NCBI GenBank assembly: GCA_013298165.1
Contig: JAAFJU010000013.1
Span: 1 to 62,357 of the forward strand
DNA: 62,357 bases
Direction: 5' to 3'
From: Synechococcales cyanobacterium bin31.maxbin.ball.101
GTDB taxonomy: Bacteria > Cyanobacteriota > Cyanobacteriia > Leptolyngbyales > Leptolyngbyaceae
This document shows, piece by piece, positions 1,602-39,189 of this stretch. The notes beneath the pieces were generated by a model that searched no databases, was not told the DNA's origin, and saw nothing but the letters and a program-made list of their open reading frames with translations. Each line of letters begins with the position of its first letter. Within the stretch, counting starts at the first letter, position 1. Made by a program: the position numbers and the translations under genes.

Positions 1602-1634
1602 CCCCCAGAATTGGGGGCCGGGGGGCGGTTCGTC
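1602..1634 (+). repeat. Dispersed palindromic repeat, single copy
   Basis: Core CCCCCAGAATTGGGGG (1602-1617) is followed by ccggggggcggttcg. The same core with the same GC-rich flank recurs near 11.2, 14.7, 26.2 and 39.1 kb. Here it lies just past the stop of tic22. Confidence 0.85.
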
Positions 1635-4579: not shown

Positions 4580-5560
4580 TTAAGGCCGTTGCCCGAAGCG
4601 CTGAATGAGTTCTTCTTGGGACAGTTGCATAACAGCCCTGACCCGATCGATCGGACTTAGGTTCAATAATGCCGGAACTACAGCGGCGAGTTTACGATCG
4701 ATAGTGCCAAATTTCACCAACAACATGCTTTCAAGGGTGGTGCGATCGCCCTCCTGCCGTCCTTCCTGCCGTCCTTCCTGCCGTCCTTCCTGCCGTCCTT
4801 CCTGCCGTCCTTCTTGCCGTCCGACTGCTATGCCTTCTCGGATGGTTTGATTGCGCCAGTCTTCGTAGAGGGCGTCGATGTTGAGAAGGGTTTCTTGGTC
4901 GTTGGTGGTGAGGTTGGGTTGGCTTTTTAGCATGATTCTGAGTTTGGTGATGTTTTCGCGGATGAAATCGGTTAGGGGTTGTTGGGGTAATTCTAGCAAT
5001 TCTTCAATGGCTTTGCGCTGAACTTCATCGCGACCAAGAAGCCGAAGTAGAAGGGTCTCAGGAATGACGGGAAGTTGGTGGACGACGACGAAACCGATCC
5101 GCAAGGTATCCCCGAAGAAATAGAAGCCTTTGGGCCATTTCTTTTTGGCGATCGCATTGCAGCCGTTCAGGGATTTCTCCGAAGCGGTGGGGACGATGAG
5201 CCAAAGTTGAGGCTGGTCTTGGGGTTTGATTTTTTGCTTCTCGCGTTTCGATCGTCGGGACCATTCGGCACGGACACGGCAGAGTTTTTCGATGCAGTGA
5301 AAGAGGTCTTCGGTGGAAATAGGATTGCGGAAGACTTCGATTAAGGAGGGTGCGATCACCATTTTGCCCAGTTGTCCGAGCAGTTCAATGGGTTGGCGAG
5401 ATTGTGGGATGAACCAGATATCGACTTGCAGGGCCTCACCCGGTGGGAGTTCAAAGCTGATTTCGATTTCTTGGCTGAAGGGCGAGAGCATTCCTTTCAG
5501 ATATTGTTTGGCAAACTGATCGTGGCGGTTTTTGGTCATGGCGATCGCAGGATTCATCAA
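4580..5560 (-). CDS. Cyanobacterial protein with GRQE repeat tract
   Basis: A 326-residue protein of a family abundant in filamentous cyanobacteria and often left as hypothetical. The N-terminal part has LPPGEALQVDIWFIPQ, LGQLGKMVIAPSLIEVFRN and LWLIVPTASEK, a layout resembling PD-(D/E)XK-like nuclease folds; I infer this from pattern only. The middle is helical (PETLLLRLLGRDEVQRKAIEELLELP). Residues about 242-267 are a run of GRQE units coded by a 12-bp tandem repeat. The C-terminus (LESMLLVKFGTIDRKLAAVV then LNLSPIDRVRAVMQLSQEEL) resembles the DUF4351-type tail of such proteins. It abuts the upstream PQQ-propeller gene with no gap. Confidence 0.6.
   Translation of the reverse strand: MMNPAIAMTKNRHDQFAKQYLKGMLSPFSQEIEISFELPPGEALQVDIWFIPQSRQPIELLGQLGKMVIAPSLIEVFRNPISTEDLFHCIEKLCRVRAEWSRRSKREKQKIKPQDQPQLWLIVPTASEKSLNGCNAIAKKKWPKGFYFFGDTLRIGFVVVHQLPVIPETLLLRLLGRDEVQRKAIEELLELPQQPLTDFIRENITKLRIMLKSQPNLTTNDQETLLNIDALYEDWRNQTIREGIAVGRQEGRQEGRQEGRQEGRQEGRQEGDRTTLESMLLVKFGTIDRKLAAVVPALLNLSPIDRVRAVMQLSQEELIQRFGQRP
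4753..4824. repeat. 12-bp tandem repeat inside a coding sequence
   Basis: Five perfect copies of cctgccgtcctt (4753-4812) plus one degenerate copy. The unit is a multiple of three, so copy-number change keeps the frame. It codes for GRQE units in the protein on the minus strand. Confidence 0.95.
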
Positions 5561-9242: not shown

Positions 9243-9947
9243 TTAGTTGCGACGATCGCCACTGAAGAAAATCATGATGATGTATTGCATCACTTGCAAC
9301 AAAGAGTAGAGCGCCGTTGCCACATAGGTAAAGGCCGCTGCATTCAGCACCTTTTTCGCACCCCTATTTTCTTCGCCCTGCAAAATCCCAAATTCATCAA
9401 TCATCCGCAGTGCCCGCGCCGAAGCGTCAAACTCCACCGGAAGCGTCACCAAATGAAACACCAAACTCGACGCAAATAAGATCAAACCCACATAGACAAA
9501 AAGCAAACTAATGCCCTTCAACGCCCCGAACATCATGCCACCCATGATCAACATCGGCCCAAACTGAGCACCGATATTCACTGCGGGTACTAGGGCCGAT
9601 CGGAGATTCATGGCCTGATAGCCTTCCACATCCTGCAAGACGTGACCACACTCATGGGCTGCCACCGCCGCCGCCGCCAAAGAGGTCGAGCCATAGACCA
9701 CCTCAGAGAGCCGAACGGCCTTCGCGCTCGGGTCATAGTGATCACTCAAAACCCCGGCCACAGGCTCAACCGTAATATGGCTCACTCCCATGCGTTTGAG
9801 AATGGCCTCAGCCACCTCTGCGCCTGTCATGCCCATGCTGGACTGGACTTGAGAATATTTGTCGTAGGTGCCTTGGACGCGCTGCTGTGCCCACCACACC
9901 AGCAACATGCCAGGAAGAAGCAACAACATAGATGGATGAAAGAACAT
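9243..9947 (-). CDS. YugP-family zinc metallopeptidase
   Basis: A 234-residue membrane protein of the neutral zinc metallopeptidase family typified by YugP. The zinc motif HECGHVLQD (HExxH variant HECGH) lies near residue 93, after an N-terminal membrane helix (MLLLLPGMLLVWWAQQRV). Two or three further helices follow (ALVPAVNIGAQFGPMLIMGG, ISLLFVYVGLILFASSLVF and a C-terminal helix). The segment VPVEFDASARAL after the helices is also family-typical (here LPVEFDASARAL). Substrates are unknown; a role in membrane protein turnover is the usual guess. It is monocistronic with its own terminator. Confidence 0.88.
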   Translation of the reverse strand: MFFHPSMLLLLPGMLLVWWAQQRVQGTYDKYSQVQSSMGMTGAEVAEAILKRMGVSHITVEPVAGVLSDHYDPSAKAVRLSEVVYGSTSLAAAAVAAHECGHVLQDVEGYQAMNLRSALVPAVNIGAQFGPMLIMGGMMFGALKGISLLFVYVGLILFASSLVFHLVTLPVEFDASARALRMIDEFGILQGEENRGAKKVLNAAAFTYVATALYSLLQVMQYIIMIFFSGDRRN

Positions 9948-10062
9948 GGTTTAGCTCGCTTAGGTCATTTAAATGCTTTCGATTTATATGCTAACATCTG
10001 CCCTGAAAAGTGCCACGATCGGCAACCTCGACCCATTTTGGGTGGATTAGTGAACTCAACCC

Positions 10063-11142: not shown

Positions 11143-11226
11143 GCGACCTGCCCCCCGGTCCCTAATTCTGGGGGAGCTAGAGTTCGGCCCAGTGTCCGGT
11201 TCCCCCAGAATTGGGGGTTAGGGGGC
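11143..11226. repeat. Inverted pair of the dispersed palindromic repeat
   Basis: A minus-oriented copy (about 11150-11176, one base diverged in the core) and a plus-oriented copy with a perfect core (11201-11216) face each other across about 25 bp. The same head-to-head arrangement occurs at 39040-39122. The right end runs into the glycosyltransferase gene, whose stop codon lies inside it. Confidence 0.85.
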
Positions 11227-12348
11227 TAATAATTTCGCAAGCTGTGATCCGATCGCTCCTTTATCAAAAATCTTCAAGCATTCCGATCGCAGATAGTCGC
11301 CATCGGTGCGTTGATCCCCGCCCTTCAGCATCTCGATCGTTGCCATGGCTACCTCATCGGGATCGCGGTGCGGCACTCGCCAGCCTAGCCTTCCATCTTG
11401 CAGCGGTTCCGCTGATCCGTCCGCATCTCCCGACAGGACCGGAACCCCGCAAGCCATCGCCTCCAAATAGACAATCCCGAACCCTTCCTGGGAGGGCATC
11501 ACGTAGGCATCGGCCAAATTGTAATGAGCCGCCAAATCCTTCGTCGCCACAAATCCCGCAAAAATCACCCGATCGGCCACTCCCAACTCCACCGCCAACG
11601 CCGCCAACCTCGGCTGGTCATCGCCGCGCCCGAGGATCAAATATGTAACATCTGGGACCGATCGTAAAATCTCCGGCAACGCCCGAAGGGTGACATCGAC
11701 GCCCTTGTACCGATCGCCCGACCACAGCCTTGCCACGGTCATCAGAACTTTTGAATCCTCCAAGCCATACTTTGCAATCCAATCCTGCGACTTCGGCTGT
11801 GGCTGAAACGCTTGACCATCGACGGCACAGTACAGAAACTCGACTTTTTCGGGTTCGATCTGGTTCGAGGCACAGAGCCGATCGCGGGAATAGCGGCTAA
11901 TCGTCCAAATCTTCGCACTAGCCTGCAATGCCTTCTGTTGCGATTTTCCCAACGGCTCCCAAACTTCCTTCCCGTAGGTCAACACTGTAAATGGAATCCC
12001 CAATGGCTGACAAATGGCCCGAATGACAGGCGCAAGATTAATATGTCCGCAATAGAGGTGGCTCGGCTTCGATCGCACCACATAGGCGACTAAGGCAGCA
12101 ATCAGTTTTAAACGACCCACTTGAGGCGACGGGTGTTTAAAAAAGTGAAAGTTGAGGTGGGGATCTGCGAAAGGATTGGGCATTTCGGCGCTGTCCCGCA
12201 ACAGAAAAATATCGGCAACAGTCTCATTCCCGCCTTGCGAAACCGCTGGTAGAGCCTTCGGCATTGCCCTCAGCAGGTCGCCCACATAGGACTGAATGCC
12301 ACCTTCACAGGACAAAATTTCTAAGAAAACGAACGCAATGCGGGACAT
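11218..12348 (-). CDS. Glycosyltransferase family 4
   Basis: A 376-residue GT-B glycosyltransferase. The N-terminal half carries the acceptor side (VFLEILSCEGGIQSYVGDLL). The C-terminal half has the GT4 signature: MTVARLWSGDRYKGVDVTLR, YLILGRGDDQPRLAALAVEL, and the EX7E motif in SQEGFGIVYLEAMACGVPVL, which binds the nucleotide sugar. It probably acts in cell-surface polysaccharide or glycolipid synthesis; donor and acceptor cannot be read. The last codons (KLLAP-stop) are supplied by the edge of the dispersed repeat, so the C-terminus may have been altered by the element. Confidence 0.88.
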   Translation of the reverse strand: MSRIAFVFLEILSCEGGIQSYVGDLLRAMPKALPAVSQGGNETVADIFLLRDSAEMPNPFADPHLNFHFFKHPSPQVGRLKLIAALVAYVVRSKPSHLYCGHINLAPVIRAICQPLGIPFTVLTYGKEVWEPLGKSQQKALQASAKIWTISRYSRDRLCASNQIEPEKVEFLYCAVDGQAFQPQPKSQDWIAKYGLEDSKVLMTVARLWSGDRYKGVDVTLRALPEILRSVPDVTYLILGRGDDQPRLAALAVELGVADRVIFAGFVATKDLAAHYNLADAYVMPSQEGFGIVYLEAMACGVPVLSGDADGSAEPLQDGRLGWRVPHRDPDEVAMATIEMLKGGDQRTDGDYLRSECLKIFDKGAIGSQLAKLLAP

Positions 12349-13534: not shown

Positions 13535-16042
13535 CTACTTTGGATATACCACCGTCACTCCTGTCCCGCCGTCATATTTTTCCGCAGGTTCAAATTTCGC
13601 GACTCGATCGTGCCGCTTTAAATAAGCATGAACGCCTTGCTTGAGCTTGCCTGTGCCGTGGCCGTGGATGATCCAAATGGGTCCATGATTCGCGGAAATG
13701 GCGCGATCGATCACAATTTCGGCATCCGCCACCCGCTGTCCCCGAATGTCAAACGTCGTGCTTTCGGTTCGCACCGCCGGAGCAGAGGGAGTTGGGTTTT
13801 GTGGAGGTTGGTTTTTAGCTTTTCGCTCTTCTTTGGGTTTCTCTTCGCGTTCGACTTTTTGACCCTGCAGTGATTCGATTTCGTAGACCGAAACGTTCAT
13901 TTTCATAATCCCAAACCGCACCGTGAGTTCTTCCCCCTCACTCGCCAAAACCTCTGCCGTCTGCCCAATGCGCGGAATCCTCACCCGATCGCCCACCTTC
14001 GGCATAAATCCAGGCTTTTTCTTTTTGGTTTCAGCGGAGGGGAGGTGTTTGTCGGCGAGTTTGTTGAGGCGATCGGTAGCGAGTTGCGCGTCTTGTCCCG
14101 TCGGAGTCCCTTTTTGCAATTGCTTGATCACCTGAGCAACCTGCGATTTGGCATCCAGCAGCATTTTTTGCACAGCATCTTCTTGCGCTTGTTTGAGTTC
14201 GCGTTCGCGCTCTTTTAAGACCTGTGCTTTTGCCGTCACTTGCTCATAGAAAAACTCCGCTTGTTTGATTAACCGTTCCGCTTCTTTGGCTTTCTCTTCC
14301 TGCTCTCGCCGCTGCGCTTCCAGACCTGCAATGACTTCGTTAACATCTTGGCTCATGCCGCCGATGTAGCCACGGGCGTCTTCTACGATCGCAGACTGCA
14401 ATCCTAAGCGAGATGCGATCGTTAATGCATTCGATCGTCCGGGGATTCCCCACAGCAATCGATAGGTCGGCTCTAGTAGCACATCATCAAACTCCACCGA
14501 CGCATTTTCAAACCGTTCATCTTGATATTTCAATGCCTTCAGTTCACCGAAGTGTGTGGTGGCGATCGTCAATTTTGCACGGTTGGCGAGATGTTTTAGC
14601 AATGCGATCGCTAATGCAGAACCCTCGGACGGATCAGTTCCCGCCCCCACTTCATCCAGTAAGACTAATGCATTGGACCGATCGGCAACAATTCCACTAA
14701 ATTCCGGTTCCGGCTCCCCCAGAATTGGGGGCTGGGGGGCCATCCGGGTTTCTGCAACATCCGCATCCAATGCATCCAAAATCCGTCCAATCCGACGAAT
14801 ATGTCCCGAAAACGTAGACAAACTTTGCTGCAACGATTGCTCATCCCCAATATCCGCCAACACCTGCCCAAACCAAGGCAATTCCACAGGTTCCCGCGCT
14901 GGGACAAACAACCCCACCTTCGACATCAACACCGCCAACGCCAAGGTTTTTAACGTAACTGTCTTACCACCTGTGTTTGGACCTGTGATCGCAACGACGC
15001 GAATCTTTGGATCAATATTCAAATGCGTCGGAATCACCGCGCGGCCTTCTTCATTTTTATGTTGCCAAACCAGCAACGGATGGCGCAAATTGCGCAAGGT
15101 AATATTTTGATTGCCCGCTGCCGCCTCGTCCCAATCAATAAAGGTGGGCGGATTAGCTTCAAGCCAGTAGCTATAGCGCGATCGGGCTGTTGCTAAATCC
15201 AACATCGTACAAATAGCCACAAGATGCTCCAGGTCCTCTTGAACCTCTGCAACGAGTGCCGTCAACTTCCGCCGCACGGCTTCTTCTTCCGCTTGTTCTT
15301 GACGTAAAAACTGCCGCAATGCATTGTTCATTTGCACAGTGGACTGCGGCTCGATGAACAAGGTCGCCCCACTGGTCGAGGCATCGTGAACAATGCCGGG
15401 AATGTGTTCTTTATAGTTTGATTTAATCGATAGGACGTAGCGCCCGTCGCGCTGAGTGATCACGGATTCTTGAATCGCACTGGAATGGCGACTCATCATC
15501 TTGTTCAAAATGTCCAAAATCCGATCGCGGGTTGATCGGATCTTCTCCCGAATGTCCGTCAGCTTCGGACTAGCCCGCTCTGTGACTTTCCCCCGATCGT
15601 CAATACAGCGATAAATCTCTTGTTCAATCTCTGGATAGGTCCGCAGATCGGCCACCATCTCTAAAAGCGTGGGCACGTTTTCTGCATTTTCGATCGCTCG
15701 ACGCAGGGTTCTGGCCCCGGACAAGGTGGTGGAAATATTCAGCAGTTCTTCGCCCGAGAGCAAGCCTTGCAGGGACGATCGTTCCAGCGCATCCCCAATA
15801 TCCTGAATCCCCCCAAAGGGAAGTCCCCCAGAGACCGATTGATCCAACTCGTAGGTCTCACGGGTCTGGGCGAGGAGGTGCAGGGTCTCTTCTTTGGTCG
15901 CAGGAATTTGAAGGTGATGGGCGGCGATCGACCCGAGTTTTGTCGCGGCGAAGGTGGCCAAGTGCTGACACAGGCGCGACCATTCCAATAAATTGAGGGT
16001 TTCTTGCTGGATCAAGGGAGGTGGTGGAGACGATCGGGACAT
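13535..16042 (-). CDS. mutS2: MutS2 endonuclease / ribosome-rescue ATPase
   Basis: An 835-residue MutS2: clamp/lever helices, ATPase with P-loop GPNTGGKT (354-361), Walker B LVLLDEVGAGTD (459-470), a long coiled coil (about 560-640), a KOW-like segment (PKVGDRVRIPRIGQTAEV) and a C-terminal Smr domain with DIRGQRVADAEI and IIHGHGTGKL. MutS2 suppresses recombination and, in Bacillus, splits collided ribosomes. It has an extra stretch of about 25 residues (428-456) just before Walker B, where usual MutS2 proteins go almost directly from the lever helix to LVLLDE. That extra peptide (with PQPPILGEPEPE) is coded by the dispersed repeat at 14711-14743 in frame. All key ATPase residues remain. Confidence 0.93.
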   Translation of the reverse strand: MSRSSPPPPLIQQETLNLLEWSRLCQHLATFAATKLGSIAAHHLQIPATKEETLHLLAQTRETYELDQSVSGGLPFGGIQDIGDALERSSLQGLLSGEELLNISTTLSGARTLRRAIENAENVPTLLEMVADLRTYPEIEQEIYRCIDDRGKVTERASPKLTDIREKIRSTRDRILDILNKMMSRHSSAIQESVITQRDGRYVLSIKSNYKEHIPGIVHDASTSGATLFIEPQSTVQMNNALRQFLRQEQAEEEAVRRKLTALVAEVQEDLEHLVAICTMLDLATARSRYSYWLEANPPTFIDWDEAAAGNQNITLRNLRHPLLVWQHKNEEGRAVIPTHLNIDPKIRVVAITGPNTGGKTVTLKTLALAVLMSKVGLFVPAREPVELPWFGQVLADIGDEQSLQQSLSTFSGHIRRIGRILDALDADVAETRMAPQPPILGEPEPEFSGIVADRSNALVLLDEVGAGTDPSEGSALAIALLKHLANRAKLTIATTHFGELKALKYQDERFENASVEFDDVLLEPTYRLLWGIPGRSNALTIASRLGLQSAIVEDARGYIGGMSQDVNEVIAGLEAQRREQEEKAKEAERLIKQAEFFYEQVTAKAQVLKERERELKQAQEDAVQKMLLDAKSQVAQVIKQLQKGTPTGQDAQLATDRLNKLADKHLPSAETKKKKPGFMPKVGDRVRIPRIGQTAEVLASEGEELTVRFGIMKMNVSVYEIESLQGQKVEREEKPKEERKAKNQPPQNPTPSAPAVRTESTTFDIRGQRVADAEIVIDRAISANHGPIWIIHGHGTGKLKQGVHAYLKRHDRVAKFEPAEKYDGGTGVTVVYPK
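14711..14743 (+). repeat. Dispersed palindromic repeat inside mutS2
   Basis: A perfect core CCCCCAGAATTGGGGG (14716-14731) with the flanks ccggct and ctggggggc shared with the intergenic copies. It is read in frame, on the antisense strand relative to the repeat, as part of the MutS2 insertion at residues about 434-445. Confidence 0.9.
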
Positions 16043-25982: not shown

Positions 25983-26081
25983 CCCGATCCCCCTAAATCC
26001 CCCTTGTAAAGGGGGACTTTGAAGAGTGCGATTGTTTTCCTCCTCTTGTTCCCCCTTTTCAAGGGGGCTAGGGGGATCGGG
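25983..26081. repeat. MITE-like element with terminal inverted repeats
   Basis: A 99-bp block begins CCCGATCCCCCTAAATCCCC and ends with the near-exact inverse (CTAGGGGGATCGGG). Each arm is itself palindromic (CCCCCTTG-taaa-GGGGG and CCCCCTTTTCAAGGGGG). Elements of this type are common in cyanobacterial genomes. It lies in the divergent promoter region between the histidine kinase and omp85. Confidence 0.85.
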
Positions 26082-26103: not shown

Positions 26104-28092
26104 ATGAAACTCTTCTTTCTTGCGTTTAACACTACGATCGTCACTGTTCTCACGATCGCCCCTGCCATTGCAGAACCCCCGGCGAACCGCCCCCCGGCCC
26201 CCAATTCTGGGGGAGTTAGAGTGGTAGAAAAACTTGATGTTCAATTGGATCAGCCTGTTTATGAAACAATCGCTGATTCAACAGAACCTAAAATCACTGT
26301 CGTAGAACTGATTGTGAAAGGGGTTACGGGAGATCTGGAAGATGAAATCTATCGGGTGATTCAAACCAGGCCGGGACAATCGGTGAGCCGATCGCAATTG
26401 CAAGAAGATGTTGAACGCATTATTAAAACAGGGCGATTTGCCAAGGTGCAGGCGGTGCCTGAGGAGACGGCTTTGGGGGTGCGGGTGACGTTCACAGTAG
26501 AGCCGAATCCGGTGTTGAAACAGGTTCAATTGACTGGACGAAAGGTGATTCCAGAACAAGTTGTTGAAGATGCCTTTCGATCGCAGTATGGTCAACCCCT
26601 CGATCGTAATACCTTCCAAATGGGCATCAAAACCTTAAACAAATGGTATCAAGACAATGGCTACATCCTCGCGCAGGTGGCTGATACGAGCAATATTACG
26701 CCCGACGGTGTGGCGACGATCGAGGTTGCAGAAGGGGAAGTGGAAGATATTCAAATTCAATTTCTCAACCGAGAGGGCGAAGAGAAAGATGCTCAAGGCA
26801 ATCCCATTAAAGGCACAACCCGATCGTTCATCATCACTCGTGAAATGGAAACACGATCGGGCGAAATAGTGAATCGCAATAGACTGCAGGCTGATTTGCA
26901 ACGCATTGCGGGATTGAGAATTTTTAAAGATGTCAAAGTGAGTTTTGCGCCGGGAAGCGAGCCGCGCAAGGTGATTGTCGTCATTCAACCGATCGAACAA
27001 TCCAATATCACCGCAACACCCGGCATCAACTGGAGTTCTCGCACGGGGTTTTCGGCGATCGGCAGTCTGCAAGCAGGCAACATTGGTGGCAATAACCAAA
27101 AGCTCAGTGCTGAACTGGAACTGGGCGATCGGACCTTAGCTTATGATCTCAGTTTTACCGATCCTTGGATTGGCGGCGATCGGTATCGCACAGGCTATAC
27201 GGCGCGGGTGTTTCGGCAACTCGGGACTTCGCTAAATTTTGAAGGCGGTAAGACGGATGTAAAACTGGCGAACGGCGATCGACCGCGCATTCTTCGCACA
27301 GGCGGGGCGGTGACGTTTAATCGATCGCTCAGTCCAGACCCCTTAAAACGATCGGATTGGGTTGCGTCCTTAGGATTGCAATATCAAAACATCGAACTCC
27401 AAGATGCCAGTCGCAATAGCGTTTCCAAAGATGCCCTAGGCAATAATCTGAGTGCCAGTGGGACTGGACGCGATGACTTCCTGTCGATTCCGCTGACTCT
27501 CACCTACGACAAGCGTAACGATGCCCTTACGCCTACCCAAGGTTCTGTCTTCCGGTTCTCGTCTGAGCAATCCATTCCGATCGGTCAAAGCAGCATTTTT
27601 TCCAATGCGCTACGGGCCAGTTACAGCACCTACGTCCCTGCAAATTTACTCCAGATCACGCCCGGTTGTCGCAAAAAAGATCCGAGTGCGATCGACTGTC
27701 CTCAAGCCTTAGCATTCAATCTGACAGGCGGTACCATTTTAGGCAAACTTCCGCCCTACCAGGCGTTTTCCCTAGGCGGGAGCAACTCGGTGCGGGGCTA
27801 TGAAGATGGAGATGTTGGGAGCGCCCGCAGCTTTATTCAAGCCTCAGCGGAATATCGATTTCCGGTTCTTTCGCTGATTAGTGGGGCGCTATTTGTCGAT
27901 GCCGCAACCGATTTTGGCAGCGGGCGCAGCGTGATCGGGACACCGGGAGAGGTGCGGAGCAAATCGGGCAATGGATTGGGATATGGATTGGGAGTCCGAA
28001 TCAATTCGCCATTAGGCCCGATTCGGCTCGATTATGGCTGGAACGATCGGGGTGAAAACAAACTGCACTTCGGCTTGGGTGAACGGTTTTAA
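26104..28092 (+). CDS. Omp85 / BamA outer-membrane assembly protein
   Basis: A 662-residue Omp85 protein: signal peptide (residues 1-23, ending AIA), a Pro-rich linker, three POTRA domains (about 64-136, 137-213 and 214-300) and a C-terminal 16-strand barrel ending HFGLGERF with terminal Phe, as needed for outer-membrane insertion. The barrel has the conserved VRGYEDGDVG element of the lid loop. It inserts beta-barrel proteins into the outer membrane; three POTRAs are the cyanobacterial form, related to chloroplast Toc75. The linker residues NRPPAPNSGG (28-37) are coded by a copy of the dispersed repeat, inserted in frame just after the signal peptide. Confidence 0.93.
   Translation: MKLFFLAFNTTIVTVLTIAPAIAEPPANRPPAPNSGGVRVVEKLDVQLDQPVYETIADSTEPKITVVELIVKGVTGDLEDEIYRVIQTRPGQSVSRSQLQEDVERIIKTGRFAKVQAVPEETALGVRVTFTVEPNPVLKQVQLTGRKVIPEQVVEDAFRSQYGQPLDRNTFQMGIKTLNKWYQDNGYILAQVADTSNITPDGVATIEVAEGEVEDIQIQFLNREGEEKDAQGNPIKGTTRSFIITREMETRSGEIVNRNRLQADLQRIAGLRIFKDVKVSFAPGSEPRKVIVVIQPIEQSNITATPGINWSSRTGFSAIGSLQAGNIGGNNQKLSAELELGDRTLAYDLSFTDPWIGGDRYRTGYTARVFRQLGTSLNFEGGKTDVKLANGDRPRILRTGGAVTFNRSLSPDPLKRSDWVASLGLQYQNIELQDASRNSVSKDALGNNLSASGTGRDDFLSIPLTLTYDKRNDALTPTQGSVFRFSSEQSIPIGQSSIFSNALRASYSTYVPANLLQITPGCRKKDPSAIDCPQALAFNLTGGTILGKLPPYQAFSLGGSNSVRGYEDGDVGSARSFIQASAEYRFPVLSLISGALFVDAATDFGSGRSVIGTPGEVRSKSGNGLGYGLGVRINSPLGPIRLDYGWNDRGENKLHFGLGERF
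26181..26220 (-). repeat. Dispersed palindromic repeat inside omp85
   Basis: Core CCCCCAATTCTGGGGG at 26198-26213, with the left flank ggcgaaccgccccccgg that is the reverse complement of the flank ccggggggcggttcgtc at 1618-1634. It is read in frame as the Pro-rich linker after the Omp85 signal peptide. Confidence 0.9.
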
Positions 28093-32168: not shown

Positions 32169-32252
32169 GCCTTGATTTAGACGATCGGCACTCAGTAGAT
32201 CTATGTAATTAAACCTACGATGGGTTTGGGGTAGTCCTTACGGACGTAAACT

Positions 32253-32365
32253 ACGACTCCGCTCACCCCACGAATCCCAGGCTTGAGGACTGAGCGGAGT
32301 CGAAGTCCGGGTTATGCCCACTAAATCCTGAGTTGAGGACTGAGCGGAGTCGAAGTCCGGGTTAT
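32253..32365. repeat. 33-bp direct repeat with inverted partner
   Basis: Two exact 33-bp copies (32283-32315 and 32333-32365) beginning ttgaggactgagcggagt are spaced 50 bp start to start. An inverted partial copy, cgactccgctca, lies at 32254-32265. The motif TGAGCGGAGTCGAAG is a widespread small bacterial repeat, able to form a hairpin with the inverted copy. Confidence 0.85.
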
Positions 32366-37609: not shown

Positions 37610-38995
37610 ATGTTGCGTTCAGATTGGATTGCGAAACGTGCGGGACATGGCAATACCACCCAGATGCACTATGCACGTCAGGGCTTGATCACAGAAGAAA
37701 TGGACTACGTGGCAAAACGGGAAAACCTTCCGCCTAGCCTGATTCGGGATGAAGTGGCCCGAGGTCGCATGGTGATTCCGGCGAATATTAATCACCCGAA
37801 CCTCGAACCCATGGCGATCGGCATTGCCTCCACCTGCAAAGTCAACGCCAACATCGGCGCTTCGCCCAACTCCTCCGACATCAACGAAGAAGTCGCCAAG
37901 CTTCACTTGGCGGTCAAATATGGCGCAGATACCCTGATGGATCTGTCCACAGGCGGCGGGAACCTCGATGAAATTCGGACGGCCATTATTAATGCTTCTC
38001 CGATTCCGATCGGCACCGTCCCCATCTACCAAGCCCTCGAAAGCGTCCACGGCAACTTCGACAACTTCACCGAAGACGACTTCCTCCACATCATCGAAAA
38101 ACACGCCCAGCAAGGCGTAGACTACATGACCATCCATGCGGGCCTGCTGATTGAGCATTTGCCCCTGACCCGCAGTCGGATCACAGGCATTGTCTCACGG
38201 GGCGGCGGCATCATCGCCAAATGGATGCTCCACCACAAGCGCCAAAACCCGCTCTACACCCGCTACACCGACATCATGAATATCTTCAAACGATATGATG
38301 TCACCTTTAGCCTTGGCGACTCGCTCCGTCCCGGCTGCACCCATGATGCCTCCGACGACGCGCAATTGGCTGAACTCAAAACCCTCGGACAACTGACCCG
38401 TCGGGCTTGGGAAGATGACTTGCAGGTGATGGTCGAAGGTCCGGGACATGTACCCATGGACCAAATTGAATTCAACGTCCGCAAGCAAATGGAAGAATGC
38501 TCCGAAGCGCCCTTCTACGTCCTCGGTCCCTTGGTCACAGACATTGCTCCCGGCTATGACCACATCACCAGTGCGATCGGTGCGGCCATGGCAGGCTGGT
38601 ACGGCACAGCAATGCTTTGCTATGTGACGCCGAAAGAACACTTGGGTCTGCCCAATGCGGAAGACGTTCGCAATGGCTTGATTGCCTACAAAATTGCGGC
38701 CCATGCAGCGGACATTGCCCGTCACCGTCACGGGGCACGCGATCGGGATGACGAACTGTCCCGCGCTCGCTACAACTTCGACTGGAATCGCCAGTTTGAA
38801 CTGTCCCTTGATCCAGAACGCGCCAAGGAATACCACGACGAAACGCTGCCTGAAGACGTTTATAAGACCGCAGAATTTTGTTCCATGTGTGGACCAAAGT
38901 TCTGTCCGATGCAGACCAAGATCGAAGACCAAGATCTGTCAGATTTGCAGGACTTCTTGAAAAAAGACGGTGAACGCCTTAAAGCTGCTGTTTAG
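37610..38995 (+). CDS. thiC: Phosphomethylpyrimidine synthase ThiC
   Basis: A 461-residue radical-SAM enzyme that converts aminoimidazole ribotide to HMP-phosphate in thiamin synthesis. Landmarks: [67 protein letters not shown], and the C-terminal iron-sulfur motif Cys424-x2-Cys427-x4-Cys432 ([12 protein letters not shown]). It is preceded by a TPP riboswitch and is monocistronic. Confidence 0.98.
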
Positions 38996-39039: not shown

Positions 39040-39122
39040 GCCCCCTAACCCCCAATTCTGGGGGGACATGAAATGAATCGATCTCCGGCTCCCCCAGAAT
39101 TGGGGGCTGGGGGGCGGTTCGC
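39040..39122. repeat. Inverted pair of the dispersed palindromic repeat
   Basis: A minus-oriented copy (core 39050-39065) and a plus-oriented copy (core 39091-39106) face each other across about 25 bp, the same arrangement as at 11143-11226. Each core is itself a perfect palindrome around AATT. It sits in the thiC-queF gap. Confidence 0.92.
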
Positions 39123-39145
39123 CAAGGCATCAATAACGTATAAAA

Positions 39146-39189
39146 ATAAGGGGACGTTTGGATGATCATTCCAAAGCCCCTTTTTTATT
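39146..39189 (+). terminator. Rho-independent terminator
   Basis: GGGGACGTTTGG pairs with CCAAAGCCCC (with a short internal mismatch) and is followed by TTTTTTATT. It ends rightward transcripts from thiC before queF. Confidence 0.8.

Follow-up and report, generated by a model that had tools for sequence, protein, structure and literature searches.

A putative REPIN-like paired repeat with unequal halves, widespread in cyanobacteria

Introduction

Which kind of genetic element places two copies of the same short hairpin face to face, at nearly the same distance, in separate places of a cyanobacterial genome? The question is raised by a contig of the Synechococcales cyanobacterium bin31.maxbin.ball.101, analysed here over its whole length of 62,357 nucleotides (the window). 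The initial annotation compared the repeat with REP/BIME organisation, with the pair as the mobilised unit, the singlets as its relics and a REP-type transposase acting in trans. Small mobile repeats were reportedly studied in Nostoc in 2008. The exact repeat strings, searched in literature from which most subscription papers were absent, returned no relevant paper, and an earlier description is possible. In the present work, the repeat was followed through its own genome and its relatives, and its organisation, its neighbours and its possible mode of multiplication were compared with those of known systems.

Results

Copies of the Repeat in the Window

The window contains seven copies of the repeat, in which the core CCCCCAGAATTGGGGG precedes a short tag and a further G-tract (Table 1). 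The arms of the 39.1-kb pair are inverted copies, 92% complementary and 26 nt apart; those of the 11.2-kb pair are 81% complementary and 25 nt apart. The facing pairs about 25 bp apart and the three single copies initially described are thus confirmed. The neighbours of the 39.1-kb pair are thiC, whose stop is at 38995, and a queF-like gene. The 11.2-kb pair has rsfS on one side and, on the other, the convergent ORF 11218-12348, which is glycosyltransferase-like (match below cut-offs) and takes its stop codon from the TTA at 11218-11220 in the right half of the pair. DNA folding of both pairs gave z values of -3.2 to -3.9, and an Rfam scan of the window gave nothing at gathering scores.

Table 1. 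Repeat units and their parts in the window.
Feature	Position	Strand	Remarks
Left half, 39.1-kb pair	39040..39064	-	Type a: outer tag TTA, inner tail GACATGA
Spacer, 39.1-kb pair	39065..39090		26 nt; the two inner tails differ
Right half, 39.1-kb pair	39091..39115	+	Type b: inner tail CCGGCT, outer tag CT, third tract G6
Outer extension GGTTCGCCA	39116..39124	+	Of the kind found outside b halves with an a/f partner (25/27 pairs)
Left half, 11.2-kb pair	11150..11175	-	Type b from tail AGCTAGA, by eye; one stem base mutated
Right half, 11.2-kb pair	11201..11226	+	Type f, by eye
Single copy	1602..1626	+	Intergenic, adjoins Tic22-like ORF (match below model cut-off)
Single copy	14714..14740	+	In frame in mutS2 (13535-16042, - strand), variable linker ahead of Walker B motif
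Single copy	26189..26213	-	In frame in ORF 26104-28092 (Omp85-like, below cut-offs), directly after apparent signal peptide
Sister-family head-to-head pair	25986..26078		Loops TTGTAAA and TTTTCAA; left half type e, CCCCCTAAATCCCCC..GGGGGACTTTGA

The sister-family pair, with its TT..AA loops, adds to the copies initially described and is found in dozens of places among the matches listed, in three genomes of the same genus. Other repeats are also present in the window: two direct 49-nt copies (88%) with an inverted piece of another repeat containing GAGCGGAGTCGAAG at 32250-32365, and 12-bp tandem copies (CCTTCCTGCCGT) at 4737-4832, within ORF 4580-5560.

Genome-Wide Census and Orientation

The source genome has 5,388,309 bases in 356 contigs, is 96% complete and includes the window as contig C339. 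The core CCCCCARAATTGGGGG, searched with at most one mismatch, occurs 184 + 186 = 370 times. Since the reversed control gave 0, these copies are not due to chance, and an imperfect palindrome of 20-40 nt is present in many copies. The pattern searches took in head-to-head and tail-to-tail pairs: with a gap of 8-38, there are 56 exact pairs of the former kind and 0 of the latter. The genome-wide count by orientation and spacing that had been proposed is therefore strongly head-to-head, and a random orientation and spacing of the copies is excluded. Among 100 cores listed, 21 neighbour pairs lie less than 200 bp apart, all head-to-head and with 16-42 nt between the cores.

Unequal Halves and Relic Singles

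The halves of a pair differ from each other. The 50 of the 56 own-genome pairs that were listed were read with their flanks. These pairs served both to define six half types (a to f), from the inner tail and the outer tag, and to test the combinations of types. The combinations are ab (17), ac (11), bf (10), bd (7), be (3) and ef (1), with one further pair having an unclassed half. Homotypic pairs number 0/50, compared to 12.2 expected at random, and none of 20,000 shuffles was as low. The features outside the hairpins are linked to the partner across the spacer. The b halves carry an outer GGTTCG in 25/27 pairs with an a or f partner versus 3/10 with a d or e partner (Fisher 0.0003; shared ancestry makes this and all other quoted probabilities too small), and in a-c pairs the spacer measures 16-17 nt in 11/11 cases. 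Such a linkage of outer features to the partner type is expected if pairs are copied whole.

The single copies point in the same direction. Loci L001-L030 comprise 14 pairs, one pair-like arrangement and 15 singles, and five of these 15 retain the inner tail of the missing partner 10-26 nt away, compared to 0.36 expected from random window sites. Inverted doublets (56 versus 0) with singles as remnants (relic tails in 5/15) are hence present in this genome. It is apparently the pair that is copied, rather than a hairpin on its own. What had been suggested of the organisation holds for the layout and, probably, for the pair as the copied unit; the relic origin holds for some of the singles. In the singles L009 and L017, an identical 21-nt palindrome, TTAGATGCCCGTAAGGGCTAT, breaks up the partner hairpin 5' of the core and may itself be a further small mobile repeat. 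The ac pairs L111 and L134 appear by eye to be reversed between outer flanks that are otherwise shared, which resembles a flip of the central part.

The exact AATTCT pair was also scanned in 84,980 species genomes, where at least 93 stretches were matched. The 80 titled stretches among the matches listed are cyanobacterial or from named cyanobacterial genera in 75 cases, from Armatimonadota in four and from Chloroflexota (Caldilineaceae) in one. Distinct pairs could be read 87 times from those 93 loci, and four of them have alike inner tails (shuffled mean 11.8, P 0.001). The unlike-halves rule has exceptions, namely L228, L249, L258 and L262, of which L258 and L262 are not cyanobacterial; in the Armatimonadota/Chloroflexota assemblies (L234, L242, L246, L258 and L262) the tails are other ones and two pairs have alike halves. 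In this independent set, the number of e halves was counted for the 71 pairs located on titled cyanobacterial contigs: it is exactly one in 55 pairs, zero in 11 and two in five, compared to 35.2, 20.9 and 14.9 at random. With 11 pairs added from untitled loci, the figures are 64, 13 and five (n = 82). A strict two-colour rule for the half types was considered and rejected: it fits 48/49 pairs in the own genome, yet b-e, b-f and e-f pairs all occur, and for this reason only unlike halves are claimed.

Wider Family and Hairpin Tips

The e-type half was searched in 386 genomes of the phylum as CCCCCTAAATCCCCC-loop-GGGGGACTTTGA, the loop being free in sequence and 4-8 long. It is present in 57/386 genomes and 34/143 genera, with reversed controls at 0, and among these 386 genomes none outside the class of the window carries it. 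The own genome has 86 such halves. The loops vary in a concerted manner: in 28 of 30 distinct loops taken among the matches listed, the end bases are complementary, and TA, AT, GC and CG all occur. The reading of 53 loci, 40 of them picked for loop diversity and three being duplicates of others, gave a partner recognisable by pattern at 28 loci and not at the other 25. The closing-pair class is alike in both hairpins of 25/28 pairs (shuffled mean 14.6), with 6/28 coming from one genome. Taken together, the orientation bias, the unequal and linked halves, the relic singles, the covarying tips and the spread over many genera are established at the level of sequence.

The paired unit or its e half is also borne by cyanobacterial plasmids. 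Matches of 89-100% to the first 36-37 nt of a composite query also occur on five Acinetobacter plasmids; the hairpin of these plasmids is e-half-like (L182 2501-2535, H39-H43) and up to 36/36 nt identical to that query.

Genomic Context and Insertion Sites

The context was assigned from ORFs, without annotation, at 99 sites (82 from loci of the species-genome scan, 15 from the own genome and two from the window). The neighbouring genes are convergent at 25 sites, divergent at five and in tandem at 30; 11 sites lie inside an ORF and 28 are unassignable at locus edges. The unit is thus mostly placed between genes and away from promoters (25 convergent versus 5 divergent), and its preference for gene 3' ends is evident from the sequences compared. 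This location would suit a resident regulatory hairpin, selected and immobile, that acts as a terminator or as a stabiliser of mRNA 3' ends. On the other hand, a simple terminator scan (G+C stem plus T run) gave 0 sites at either window pair, a scan that also misses a bulged hairpin with a T run at 39148-39186, just 3' of the 39.1-kb pair. Moreover, some copies are inside genes, and the number of exact pairs varies from 0 to 56 among genomes of the genus. An immobile regulatory role is considered very unlikely.

A short unit with inverted ends and without coding capacity, carried on plasmids, also resembles a MITE of a DDE transposon, in which the halves would be the terminal inverted repeats. 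This likeness does not extend to the insertion sites. With the boundary provisionally taken as GGGGGC, no direct repeat of at least 5 bp flanks the unit at 110 sites. Direct repeats of 2, 3 and 4 bp number 43, 6 and 2, versus 37.8, 5.1 and 1.3 after shuffling, and there is no clear target-duplication excess at these sites. In 116 flanking proteins, the 25 commonest of 206 Pfam families include no transposase. An autonomous element enclosed by widely spaced '-...+' cores was likewise rejected, as the two own-genome intervals read contain ordinary genes. We take these to be a LysR-type regulator and a phosphoribosyltransferase-like ORF on C69 and a phosphatase-like ORF on C116. An autonomous parent with the same ends was not seen in the loci read. 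The MITE explanation is left with a small probability.

A clean empty site was sought at three copies and found at none of them. The mutS2 copy was dropped as a candidate (insertion of ~69 bp), the linker ranging from 0 to ~100 residues in aligned relatives. In G005 and G006, the sequences matching the left and the right flank of the 39.1-kb pair are on different contigs, and at the 1.6-kb single the gap is shorter in relatives and the alignment poor.

Search for a Mobilising Enzyme

The initial proposal was a classical REP/BIME moved in trans by its cognate RAYT (TnpA-REP). The dimer geometry, the size, the gene-end location and the relic singles are alike, and the own genome does encode one intact RAYT. 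Its two Y1 matches are on C333 (short, IS200-like) and C125 (the intact RAYT; NF047646, 183.7 bits) and thus, as had been stated, outside the window. The C125 RAYT (L034 about 9250-10000, G000:C125) lies between inverted ATGCGTT..AACGCAT palindromes, with GTAG on one side, and forms with them another REP system of this genome, distinct from the paired repeat. AATTCT-type cores come no closer to this RAYT than about 8 kb, and sister-type hairpins no closer than about 6.7 kb. The hairpin feet of the repeat argue against the same enzyme. GTAG or GTGG is found at the 5' foot of 0/100 halves on the outer side and of 0 on the inner side, and CGTC at the foot of 0/100. The defining tag being missing at all these feet, the unit is outside the GTAG and CGTC superfamilies.

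The relatives provide a similar picture. Y1 matches occur in 38/42 genomes of the order, and 20 RAYT-like loci from it were read: palindromes of their own flank 9/10 short RAYTs, the paired repeat flanks none of these 10, and the long RAYTs have no flanking hairpin of the repeat's kind, except for the broken L098. In 80 Y1 loci from other genomes (L050-L099 and L152-L181), which are a part of all Y1 genes, three (L098, L152 and L171) have any C5..G5 hairpin in the stretch of flank covered. The first of these (L098, G032:C17) is a broken long RAYT-like ORF with five CCCCCTTAAAAAGGGGG-type hairpins within 1 kb, in and beside the ORF. One 97% complete draft genome (G009) has five exact pairs and no Y1 match, and a tblastn search of four Y1 proteins against 153 repeat loci (838 kb) gave no match. 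The long RAYT-like family (alignment A1) was tried as the mover and rejected; it is present in 42/386 genomes, in 20/57 of those with e-halves and in 7/25 of those with at least 10 e-halves. The suggested check, i.e., a Y1 gene flanked by such a pair, consequently came out negative in the loci read, and the action in trans of a REP-type transposase is not borne out by the only intact RAYT of the genome. A classical REP moved by its cognate RAYT is therefore regarded as improbable.

Because no linked Y1 gene, tblastn match, transposase neighbour or target repeat was found, a Y1-type movement of the unit is proposed by analogy and regarded as rather doubtful.

Triplex Layout of the Halves

Each half consists of a C-tract, a loop, a G-tract, 1-5 nt and a second G-tract, which is the C-G-G order of class II intrastrand triplexes. 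In E. coli, a class II motif folds in vitro with TTA or CCG as second loop, and its in vivo footprint lacks the expected protection in the available part of the report (PMC4666352). The same source describes some cyanobacteria as very rich in G/C-rich triplex motifs, and uses a tract limit of 6 (PMC4666352).

In the repeat, stem length is related to the third tract of its own half (rho 0.67 in 64 pairs; 0.75 in 53 pairs on titled cyanobacterial contigs) and not to that of the partner (0.00 and -0.06, respectively), figures that are descriptive since the sets share ancestry. In the own genome (48 pairs) the stems hardly vary and the corresponding rho is -0.05. The stem reaches at least 6 in 34/145 halves and otherwise measures 4-5; a third tract of at least 6 accompanies 34/34 halves of the first kind versus 24/111 with a stem below 6. 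For CTA or TTA as second loop, the stem/third-tract table reads 16, 2, 0, 19; for CT-like second loops the association is not significant (0.53). Folding predicts a single long hairpin, formed by mutual pairing of the outer tracts. If this pairing acted alone, the tract lengths should follow the partner; they follow their own half, and this candidate was rejected, stem length being independent of the partner's third tract. In own-genome pairs, the lengths of the two third tracts show a negative correlation (rho -0.51). Each half may fold as a class II C-G-G intrastrand triplex, a tentative assignment.

The layout opens a different way of multiplication, in which an intrastrand triplex motif would spread through errors of replication or repair, without a dedicated transposase. 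The C-G-G order, second loops such as TTA, CTA and CT, and the agreement of long stems with long third tracts are in its favour. The triplex-rich cyanobacteria, the lack of mobility genes linked to the E. coli motif in the part of the source available (PMC4666352) and the lack of a mover found for the repeat agree with it as well. Conversely, stems of 5 are below the published limit of 6 (PMC4666352), the folding is a prediction, and linked unequal halves at many sites arise more easily by transposition. Multiplication by such errors keeps a minor share of the probability. In a related and rather unlikely version, paired unequal triplex motifs would multiply head-to-head without a REP transposase, the third G-tract being recognised or self-acting and the unlike tails evading palindrome-cutting nucleases.

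Discussion

The observation is confirmed, and the initial interpretation is partly supported. The overall verdict is that of a REPIN-like repeat, widespread in cyanobacteria, with unequal halves, without the GTAG tag and with a possible triplex fold, the mover not having been found. There is a good probability that the unit is REPIN-like, as suggested by its organisation. It would be a non-autonomous element of ~65-95 bp, formed by two inverted stem-loops whose stems match and whose inner tails and outer tags differ, and the pair would be copied, scattered and lost as one unit. By analogy with REPINs, the movement may occur as single-stranded DNA by an enzyme of the HUH/Y1 type supplied in trans, and the unlike tails may keep the unit from being fully palindromic and thereby from being cut by the cell. 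As a whole, this explanation by a REPIN-like non-autonomous pair is considered probable.

Such a unit would widen the REPIN class to paired repeats without a GTAG tag or a linkable RAYT, and would uncouple copying in pairs from the single enzyme to which the movement of REPs is ascribed. The matching stems and differing tails make the heterodimer preference directly testable, and the link between REP-like pairs and triplex motifs can be tested with short oligonucleotides.

The elements of the IS200/IS605 family have hairpins near their ends, oriented alike on one strand, and produce no target duplication. The repeat shares with these ends, and with their non-autonomous derivatives, the terminal hairpins and the lack of target duplication. 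It differs in that its hairpins are inverted and that no TnpA-like match is present near its copies.

In layout and behaviour, the unit is like REPINs and BIMEs. These elements, as far as described in the accessible text, also have two inverted palindromes and a spacer as the copied unit, singlet remnants and an extragenic bias; unlike them, the present unit has no GTAG foot, no linked RAYT found, unlike tails and an extra outer G/C tract per half (PMC3116915). The GTAG and CGTC REPs, including the cyanobacterial GTAG-12, GTAG-15 and GTAG-16, are often head-to-head dimers as well, but here neither tag is present at 100 feet, and the stems match and the tails differ (PMC3733652). Several REP families prefer heterodimers, for which protection from SbcCD has been suggested as the reason, and some REP dimers lie within other palindromes (PMC3733652). 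This preference is recorded in the available part of the 2013 survey as one without an obvious explanation (PMC3733652), and the unequal-halves rule extends the heterodimer trend already recorded for REPs.

The single half, finally, resembles TMECO, the class II triplex motif of E. coli, which has on one strand a C-tract, a loop, a G-tract, a short loop and a G-tract, is intergenic in that species and belongs to a kind of motif in which some cyanobacteria are rich (PMC4666352). In contrast to TMECO as reported in the accessible part of that study, the cyanobacterial unit has stems of 4-6 and is arranged in head-to-head unequal pairs, and its triplex is a predicted one (PMC4666352).
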